Below, one piece after another: positions 31,745-33,404 of a DNA stretch of 36,171 nucleotides. This DNA comes from an actinobacterium SCGC AAA027-J17. GTDB taxonomy: Bacteria > Actinomycetota > Actinomycetes > Nanopelagicales > Nanopelagicaceae. Location of the stretch: positions 92,913 through 129,083 of the forward strand of contig KB912743.1 of assembly GCA_000383815.1 (NCBI GenBank), read 5' to 3'. The stretch's first letter is position 1. Each line of letters opens with the position of its first letter. The notes beneath the pieces were generated by a model that saw nothing but the letters and a program-made list of their open reading frames with translations, did no database searches and was not told where the DNA came from. A program made the position numbers and the translations under genes.

Positions 31745-31771
31745 TCAATTTAGGCGTAGCTTTTAAAACAC

Positions 31772-31784
31772 GCAAATGATTTGC
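31772..31784. repeat. Inverted repeat GCAAAT-G-ATTTGC
   Basis: A perfect 6-bp inverted repeat with a one-base spacer lies about 27 bases upstream of the -10 candidate of the cysteine leader. Its position near the -35 region would suit a regulator site, but no known sulphur-regulator consensus is recognised. Confidence 0.25.
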
Positions 31785-31810
31785 AATTAGCCTTAACTCA
31801 ATTGGTACTT

Positions 31811-31816
31811 TAGATT
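31811..31816 (+). promoter_or_regulatory. Leaderless -10 (TAGATT) of the cys leader
   Basis: TAGATT ends exactly 6 bases before the GTG at 31823 that opens the leader peptide. Identical hexamer and spacing precede the Gfo/Idh/MocA gene. Confidence 0.5.
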
Positions 31817-31822
31817 TAGCAG

Positions 31823-31903
31823 GTGATTAAATCAATGCGCAAGTGGCTGTTTACGCGCCGCCGGGTAATTGATTTTGGTCTTGCAACATCTTGCAGCTGC
31901 TAA
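31823..31903 (+). CDS. Cysteine-responsive leader peptide upstream of cysK
   Basis: A 26-residue ORF with a leaderless GTG start, or 22 residues from the ATG at 31835. It contains WLFTRRRVIDFGL and ends ATSCSC just before TAA; two of the last three codons are Cys (TGC at 31892 and 31898). The Arg-rich RRxVDL-like core and terminal Cys codons are the hallmark of actinobacterial leader peptides upstream of sulphur and cysteine genes; in mycobacteria such leaderless ORFs act as cysteine-responsive attenuators. TTTCTTT (31907-31913), 4 bases after the stop, can pair with GGAGAAA at the cysK Shine-Dalgarno (31961-31967). A ribosome stalled at the Cys codons would cover it and free cysK translation. 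The mechanism is inferred. Confidence 0.72.
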   Translation: MIKSMRKWLFTRRRVIDFGLATSCSC

Positions 31904-31970
31904 TACTTTCTTTAACCTCATCCTGATCTGCCTTTTTTTCAATCAACCAATTAATTTTTAGGAGAAATAA

Positions 31971-32897
31971 ATGAAGATTTATAACGACATTACTGAGATA
32001 TTTGGAAACACCCCGCTAGTCAAAATTAATAAAATTATGGATGGCGCCCCCGCTAATGTTTGGGCAAAGCTTGAGTTTTATAACCCATCTGCAACTGTTA
32101 AAGATCGCCTTGCGATTGCCATGGTTGATGCCGCTGAAAAAAGTGGTGAACTAAAGCCTGGTGGCACAATTGTGGAGGCAACCTCGGGAAATACTGGAGT
32201 TGCACTGGCTATGGTCGGGGCAGCTCGTGGGTACAAAGTAATTTTAACGATGCCAGAGTCGGTCTCAAAGGAGCGTCGTAAATTAATTAGAGCATACGGG
32301 GCTGAGTTGATTTTAACTCCAGCTGCAGAGGGAATGAAGGGCGCGGTTGCAAGATCAGAGGAGTTAGCAAAATCCGGCGCTGTAATGGTTCGCCAATTTG
32401 AAAATGCTGCCGGTCCCATCATTCACCGCCAAACAACTGGTGAAGAAATATGGCGAGATACTGATGGCACAGTTGATGTTTTAATCTCTGGAATTGGAAC
32501 CGGTGGCACGATTACCGGAACCGGCCAACTTCTCAAAGAGCGCAAACCAAGCATTAAGGTGATTGGTGTTGAACCAGCAGCATCACCTATTTTAAATGGG
32601 GGCGCTCCAGGCTCACATCCGATTCAAGGAATTGGTCCAAACTTTGTGCCACCAGTATTGGATCGAAATGTTTACGATGAAATTTTAGATGCCTCTGCTG
32701 CAGATGCAATTAAGTATGCCCGCCGTGCCGGAAGTGAAGAAGGAATCTTGGCTGGTATCTCGTCAGGTGCTGCGCTTTGGGCAGCCTCCGTAGTGGCAAA
32801 GCGAGCCGAGTTTGCTGGAAAAAATATCGTAGTAATCATTCCTTCATTTGGTGAGCGTTATCTGTCAACTGTTTTGTATGAAGATTTAACAGATTAA
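31971..32897 (+). CDS. cysK: Cysteine synthase (O-acetylserine sulfhydrylase)
   Basis: A 308-residue PLP enzyme that forms cysteine from O-acetylserine and sulfide. The PLP lysine is K44 in [14 protein letters not shown], the substrate loop is TSGNTG (71-76), and the phosphate-binding loop GTGGT is in [34 protein letters not shown] near the C-terminus is also typical. Strong Shine-Dalgarno AGGAG at 8 bases. It is preceded by a Cys-ending leader peptide and directly joined to cysE (TAAATG), so the last two steps of cysteine synthesis are made from one coupled message. Confidence 0.97.
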
Positions 32898-33404
32898 ATG
32901 ATCAAAAGCATTATTGAAGATATTGATACTGCGCTAGCTAAGGATCCAGCTGCGCGTAATCGATTAGAGGTATTACTTACCTATCCAGGCGTGCATGCGG
33001 TTTGGGGATATCGCATTGCCCATTTTCTTTGGCAGATCAAACTTAAGTTATTAGCCAGGATCTACTCAAATTGGATTAGGGCGGTAACTGGAGTTGAGAT
33101 TCACCCAGCAGCAAAGATTGGTAAGCGATTTTTTATTGATCACGGCATGGGGGTAGTAATTGGCGCTACGGCAATAGTTGGTGATGATGTGATGATTTAT
33201 CATGATGTTACCTTGGGTGCTAAATCAGGTGGCAGCGGAAAGCGCCATCCAACAATTGGAAATCAGGTGGTAATTGGTGCAGGGGCGCGAGTAATTGGTG
33301 ATATTTCAATTGGAGAGGGCGCGAAGATCTCAGCCAATATGGTGGTGACTAAGAGTGTGCCAGCTAGAACCTCAGTGGACTCCTCGGAGTTTTTTGCAAT
33401 CTAA
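32898..33404 (+). CDS. cysE: Serine O-acetyltransferase, short form
   Basis: A 168-residue enzyme that makes O-acetylserine from serine and acetyl-CoA. Visible parts are a short N-terminal helical region with [20 protein letters not shown] and a left-handed beta-helix with hexapeptide repeats ([20 protein letters not shown], then [20 protein letters not shown]), containing the catalytic His and Asp residues of the family. It is shorter than E. coli CysE (273), lacking most of the N-terminal domain, as in many Actinobacteria and Firmicutes. The ATG follows the cysK stop directly. The C-terminal peptide ends in FFAI; an Ile end is what binds the CysK active site in the cysteine synthase complex. 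Confidence 0.95.

Follow-up and report, generated by a model that had tools for sequence, protein, structure and literature searches.

A conserved, predicted leaderless peptide ending in Cys precedes cysK-cysE in a freshwater actinobacterial lineage and is a candidate cysteine-responsive attenuator

The window, by which we mean the whole stretch of 36,171 nt that was analysed (actinobacterium SCGC AAA027-J17, GCA_000383815.1, KB912743.1 92,913-129,083), contains a short ORF of 26 codons, and the first gene behind it belongs to the cysteine-metabolism operon cysK-cysE (Table 1). Re-reading of the sequence confirmed all coordinates given in an initial annotation for TAGATT, the GTG at 31823, the 26 codons, the Cys codons, the T7 run, GGAGAAA and cysK-cysE, as well as the presence of TTTCTTT past the leader stop, and the identification of cysK and cysE is secured by model scores that in both cases exceed the cut-off. 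Six bases separate TAGATT from the GTG start codon, two of the last three codons of the leader encode Cys, and the ATG of cysE directly abuts the stop codon of cysK. An Rfam scan of the window gave no match, and neither did a Pfam search with the leader peptide; the profile of the leader family matches the ORF in its own genome with an E value of 6.7e-15. A start led by a Shine-Dalgarno (SD) sequence at the in-frame ATG at 31835 was rejected, as this ATG is not maintained in the close relatives L004-L007, which keep GTG or ATG at the position of 31823.

Table 1. Features of the leader locus (window coordinates)
Feature	Position	Strand	Basis or remark
Palindromic operator-like box CGCAAATGATTTGCA (consensus TGCRAANNNTTYGCA)	31771..31785	+	-52 to -38 from start site; scored across leader promoters
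-10 box TAGATT	31811..31816	+	TANNNT 6 or 7 nt before the start codon in 103/106 distinct leaders
Predicted leaderless leader-peptide ORF, 26 codons + TAA, VIKSMRKWLFTRRRVIDFGLATSCSC	31823..31903	+	conservation, profile match
Leader-peptide core W-L-F-T-R-R-R-V-I-D-F	31844..31876 (Asp codon 31871-31873)	+	pN/pS 0.22
Putative regulatory Cys-Ser-Cys codons	31892..31900	+	Cys at Asp+7 (31892-31894) and Asp+9 (31898-31900)
Leader stop TAA	31901-31903	+	sequence
C-rich, G-poor spacer, possible Rho-loading region	31904..31956	+	14 C, 2 G in 53 nt
TTTCTTT	31907-31913	+	inside spacer; starts at the 4th base past the leader stop
T7 run	31933-31939	+	inside spacer
SD sequence GGAGAAA of cysK	31961..31967	+	sequence
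cysK, cysteine synthase A	31971..32897	+	TIGR01139, 433 bits, above cut-off
cysE, serine O-acetyltransferase	32898..33404	+	TIGR01172, 226 bits, above cut-off

Of 296 genomes of the order searched for the cysK protein, 146 have it, and from these 129 usable loci, that is loci fetched with at least 150 nt of upstream sequence, were available. At 105 of these 129 loci a homologous ORF (W-x-F-T-R-R-R-V-I-D-F ... Cys) precedes cysK at a distance of 51-159 nt, always directly behind the promoter, and the ORF, its Cys codons and the RRxVD core are thus kept among the relatives; the remaining 24 cysK loci of the family have no counterpart. The 105 leaders comprise 104 distinct sequences and one identical copy and, together with two named loci, make up a set of 106 distinct leaders that was chosen by the core alone, without a Cys criterion; the leader consensus reads MxxIxxWxFTRRRVIDFGRAxSCxC. 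With the leader profile, 216 of the 296 genomes in the order and 206 of 346 sampled from the class give matches at E values of up to 0.05, the weakest being uncertain. No such leader was found within 700 nt of the cysK genes outside the family (Arthrobacter, Microbacterium and others), so that the link between cysK and the leader seems confined to the family of the window. Two public MAGs, deposited as Bifidobacterium breve and as Streptomyces griseus (L032, L043), carry cysK loci with leaders of this family, and their names are almost certainly wrong.

The arrangement of promoter and start codon is equally regular. Of the 106 distinct leaders, 92 start with ATG and 14 with GTG, and in 103 a TANNNT box stops 6 or 7 nt short of the start codon, as compared to 1.8% of all ATG and GTG codons in the same DNA; the three exceptions (L017, L022, L025) have a box resembling TTATT in this position. 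Such a geometry strongly implies leaderless translation from an mRNA that would begin with the start codon itself, as had been supposed for the window; it is by promoter geometry that the ORF start fits the transcription start site.

Selection on the leader acts at the level of the peptide. Among 69 non-redundant leaders, synonymous change in the core is saturated (pS 0.74) while nonsynonymous change is rare (pN 0.16, ratio 0.22, as opposed to a ratio of 0.55 in the tail), with Asp kept in 69/69, Phe in 68/69 and Trp in 66/69 leaders and Thr and the arginines nearly invariant. At least one Cys is present in the tail of 104 of the 106 leaders, and the [KR]R-x-[VI]-D-[LF] core is accompanied by a Cys at Asp+9 in 101 of them, the position Asp+7 being occupied by Cys in 74. 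As the distance from Asp to the stop codon varies (10, 11 or 12 codons) and Asp+9 stays fixed, the position of the Cys goes with the core and not with the stop. In several leaders there is just one Cys codon, for instance in those ending in DFGRLAGSLC, a slender basis for the plain sensing of starvation. The five leaders without a Cys at Asp+9 (L168, L174, L183, L204, L206) look like products of decay; in L204 and L206 the core IKRRVIDFMR is kept, every Cys is lost and the tail reads KTSASL. The fixed spacing of Asp and Cys, the operator-like palindrome and the excess of C over G in the spacer had all gone unmentioned in the initial annotation.

Across the Actinomycetes, related leaders are also found in front of DUF4395 and rhodanese genes. 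The family of the window itself has a second leader (MFSIQPVYFTKRRVIDFARAKGCMCW), which precedes genes for a DUF4395 protein, a Fur-family regulator and a folate-binding protein, and a third (MFFTKRRVIDFCRVNSTSC), which lies before a rhodanese with a signal-like N-terminus, and the fetched matches to the leader profile include short ORFs such as MQTVALTKRRAVDFCRVGSCMC before DUF4395 (PF14340). All 38 of the second, third and outgroup leaders and all 23 leaders fetched via the independent NCBIfam model NF042934 have a Cys at Asp+9, both sets being biased towards this spacing in that the two models used end on that Cys. Against the NCBIfam models of Cys-rich leaders (curated cut-offs of 45, 27 and 45 bits for NF042933, NF042934 and NF042936, respectively) the window peptide gave no match at E<10. 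NF042933 matches 15 of 40 members of the cysK-leader family at E values of up to 10, the best being 6e-6, and the outgroup leaders reach 41-44 bits with this model and pass NF042934. The latter has matches in 198 of 297 genomes of the class, in 176 above the cut-off, but none in the genome of the window or in any listed genome of its family. Hence the leader shares core and spacing with the NCBIfam families but stays below their thresholds and is not a member of these models as curated.

The initial annotation had pointed to leader peptides of mycobacteria and Streptomyces as an analogy, and this was well chosen, as core and spacing are held in common and the peptides look like homologues, not only analogues. 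Like the leader described here, the mycobacterial polycysteine sORFs (NF042933 Ms5788A, NF042936 Ms4527A) are leaderless, have 20-30 codons and no intrinsic terminator, combine a [KR]R-x-[VI]-D-[FL] core with a Cys at Asp+9 and lie before a sulfur or cysteine operon. The leaders of the window's family differ from them in that they stand before cysK-cysE, have the core WxFTRRRVIDF and contain Cys codons that are non-contiguous and sometimes single, and in that the models match the window peptide not at all and its relatives weakly. NF042934, a cis_reg_atten model of a putative leader peptide, has the similar core L-x-K-R-R-x-V-D-[LF]-x-R-V ... C and ends on the same Cys. Leaderless Cys-rich uORFs are known to precede cysA2, Rv0485 and nirA (PMC4633059), and two papers describe the mycobacterial polycysteine leaderless sORFs as attenuators that act on downstream translation (Canestrari 2020, as cited in PMC9031893 and PMC13236596). 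Cys leaders without terminators have also been reported before cys operons of Mycobacterium and P. acnes and before cbs in B. longum (Seliverstov et al. 2005, PMC1262725). These share with the present leader the Cys codons adjoining the stop codon, the lack of a conserved terminator and a polypyrimidine spacer, and Rho was suggested to be involved; they belong to other species and operons, however, and the authors rated the Rho proposal as weak, since the motifs were not conserved. Searching the open papers, we found no description of such a leader for the lineage of the window. The leader thus appears to be an unannotated, divergent new member of the known cysteine-responsive leaderless attenuators, placed outside the curated models.

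We propose that the leader senses cysteine, a pause at its Cys codons raising the expression of cysK-cysE and a plentiful supply of cysteine attenuating it, and we put the probability of this reading at about 0.7. The cysK-cysE mRNA would begin at the GTG at 31823, leaving no 5' UTR ahead of the leader. A shortage of charged Cys-tRNA would make the ribosome pause at the Cys codons at Asp+7 and Asp+9, just before the stop codon, and expression of cysK-cysE would go up; when cysteine is plentiful, the ribosome would complete the leader and depart, and expression would be attenuated. During the pause the RRxVIDF core would lie in the exit tunnel and probably strengthen the pause. The conservation, the core, the position of the Cys codons and the gene context all support the earlier suggestion that a Cys-ending leader peptide controls cysK-cysE; that expression responds to cysteine, and in which direction, is inferred.

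What else could the ORF be? Short ORFs are common in this DNA, with 61 of 20 aa or more within 4 kb, and one might by chance overlie a promoter-proximal 5' UTR, but the profile match, the presence at 105/129 loci and the pN/pS ratio of the core refute such an origin, whose probability is negligible: the leader ORF is real. The strong selection on the peptide would also suit a small protein acting in trans that lies next to cysK incidentally. This we consider very improbable, as the ORF is always promoter-proximal, before cysK or other sulfur genes, and its Cys residues are clustered at the C-terminus. A closer contender is arrest by the nascent chain, in which the core within the tunnel would halt the ribosome on decoding of the Cys at Asp+9, so that the peptide would be read and not the number of Cys codons. 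In its favour are the conservation of the core at the peptide level in the face of saturated synonymous change, the reach of this core across the class in many families, and the fixation of Cys at Asp+9 and not at the stop codon; single-Cys leaders such as DFGRLAGSLC retain exactly this Cys. The conserved core could, however, serve leaderless initiation or functions at the RNA level instead, and the comparison sets beyond the cysK leaders are biased by models ending on that very Cys. On balance we think of arrest as a possibility held at rather less than even odds; it does not exclude the cysteine-sensing leader proposed above, with which it is compatible.

By what route would a pause in the leader be passed on to cysK-cysE? 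Translational control had been favoured over termination in the initial annotation, with TTTCTTT as an anti-SD element. The absence of an intrinsic terminator stands: the T7 run lacks a strong stem, no stem is conserved across clades, and the intrinsic terminator and antiterminator of a classical trpL-type attenuator are not found at the locus. A candidate terminator of the form GCAG...CTGC-T7 in the window was discarded, its stem being disrupted in L004 and L005, which have TGT as the Cys codon. A clade-by-clade search for conserved RNA structure by consensus folding returned nothing save hairpins among near-identical sequences; hairpins past the leader stop in one genus (CTAAAAACT...AGTTTTTAG, L196/L197) appear in single-sequence folds and are lost in the consensus fold. 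TTTCTTT is not supported as the anti-SD element. Its pairing has a probability of 0.00 in the fold of the window, where the SD of cysK is predicted to pair with the region from about 31917 onward, it is lost in the sister L006 and not conserved, and shuffling the same spacer yields a 7-bp match to GGAGAAA, with G-U pairs allowed, in 36% of cases.

In a more general form, SD masking would mean that RNA at the leader end pairs with the SD of cysK and that the paused ribosome keeps the SD open, a mechanism given for mycobacterial Cys leaders in PMC13236596. Across the 69 leaders, masking by a ribosome stalled at the leader end changes the cost of opening the SD by a mean of -0.70 kcal/mol, a relief that slightly exceeds the 0.08-0.42 obtained with 12 shuffled sets and is also larger than when the mask covers an earlier part of the ORF (p 0.013). 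Individual cases are strong, the cost dropping from 8.4 to 1.8 kcal/mol in L209, and the sister L007 having an 8-bp SD pairing just past the leader stop (P 0.92), which is missing in the sister L006. Against this, the SD lies no deeper in structure than in shuffled sequences (4.31 vs 4.24-4.94), masking the downstream spacer brings as much relief (0.90), and no clade has a conserved helix. SD masking is possible, in our view at rather less than even odds. The alternative is termination by Rho in an exposed, C-rich and G-poor spacer, with the paused ribosome at the 5' edge of the spacer blocking it. The spacers contain on average 23% C and 11% G, and C is at least twice as frequent as G in 47 of 69 leaders as compared to 6% of control regions, which are partly coding; no such bias was seen in upstream intergenic DNA. 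Rho is encoded in the genome of the window (E 6e-196). A C-rich spacer may, however, simply be a stretch without structure. As a C-rich, G-poor spacer follows the leader and Rho is present, we hold attenuation by Rho to be no less likely than SD masking and favour it slightly, as a tentative choice somewhat short of even chances. An output other than these two is unlikely.

TnaC of E. coli is an arrest peptide with Rho-dependent attenuation, in which the pause adjoins the stop codon and the Rho site follows. If both arrest by the nascent chain and termination by Rho apply, the present leader would resemble it in the order of a pause at the stop codon and then a Rho site. It would differ in that the signal would be cysteine or Cys-tRNA and the mRNA leaderless, and no relation in sequence is claimed.

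The palindrome upstream of the leader suggests a second, protein-based layer of control. Of the 106 leader promoters, 102 match the consensus TGCRAANNNTTYGCA with a score of 13-15 out of 15, as compared to 11 of 2120 random 30-mers (about 0.5%), and the palindrome is located at -51/-52 in 96 of the 106 leaders. It recurs at the promoters of the second and third leaders (L265-L283; DUF4395-Fur and rhodanese) and, in the genome of the window, before cbiM (L306, around 1501). One lead is its similarity to the Streptomyces Nur box (TTGCAA-N5-TTGCAA), which is a site of the Fur family; the palindrome is a likely operator of a sulfur/metal regulon. A Fur-family regulator gene is part of the DUF4395 operon behind the second leader (L265, 1800-2219, minus strand); a search of the window's own genome assembly, which is 72% complete, gave no Fur-family match.

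The box is still found at -52 in several cysK loci that have no leader (e.g. L155, L162, L185, L190). Among the loci that lack the leader peptide are some in which cysK is itself leaderless, with its ATG in the place of the leader start, 6-7 nt past the -10 box (L155, L162, L185, L188-L191, L193-L195, L200). As box and -10 element are kept without it, the leader cassette would seem to form a module that sits between a fixed promoter and cysK. To judge by the 24 loci without the leader peptide and the five leaders without a Cys at Asp+9, control by cysteine would be dispensable in some species.

In kind the leader is an ordinary one, and the point of interest is the Asp+9 rule, which hints at a ribosome-arrest signal. 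One may speculate, at odds well below even, that the [KR]R-x-[VI]-D-[LF] core together with the Cys at Asp+9 defines class-wide cysteine arrest peptides of the Actinomycetes, which in the family of the window are coupled to Rho attenuation and an operator. If this were true, the core would set the pause at one defined Cys codon, and the leader would be an arrest peptide and not a plain counter of Cys codons; the fixed spacing and the conserved core in any case give the loose group of 'polycysteine' leaders a hypothesis of peptide arrest that can be put to the test. Control by cysteine leader peptides would now reach an abundant, genome-streamlined freshwater lineage and the cysK-cysE operon, with a whole branch of leaders escaping the curated models, and the pair of operator and leader would offer a compact model of sulfur control in cells with very few regulators. 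Actinomycetes with large genomes may have many such leaders on further genes; up to 14 matches to NF042934 were found in one genome of family f19.
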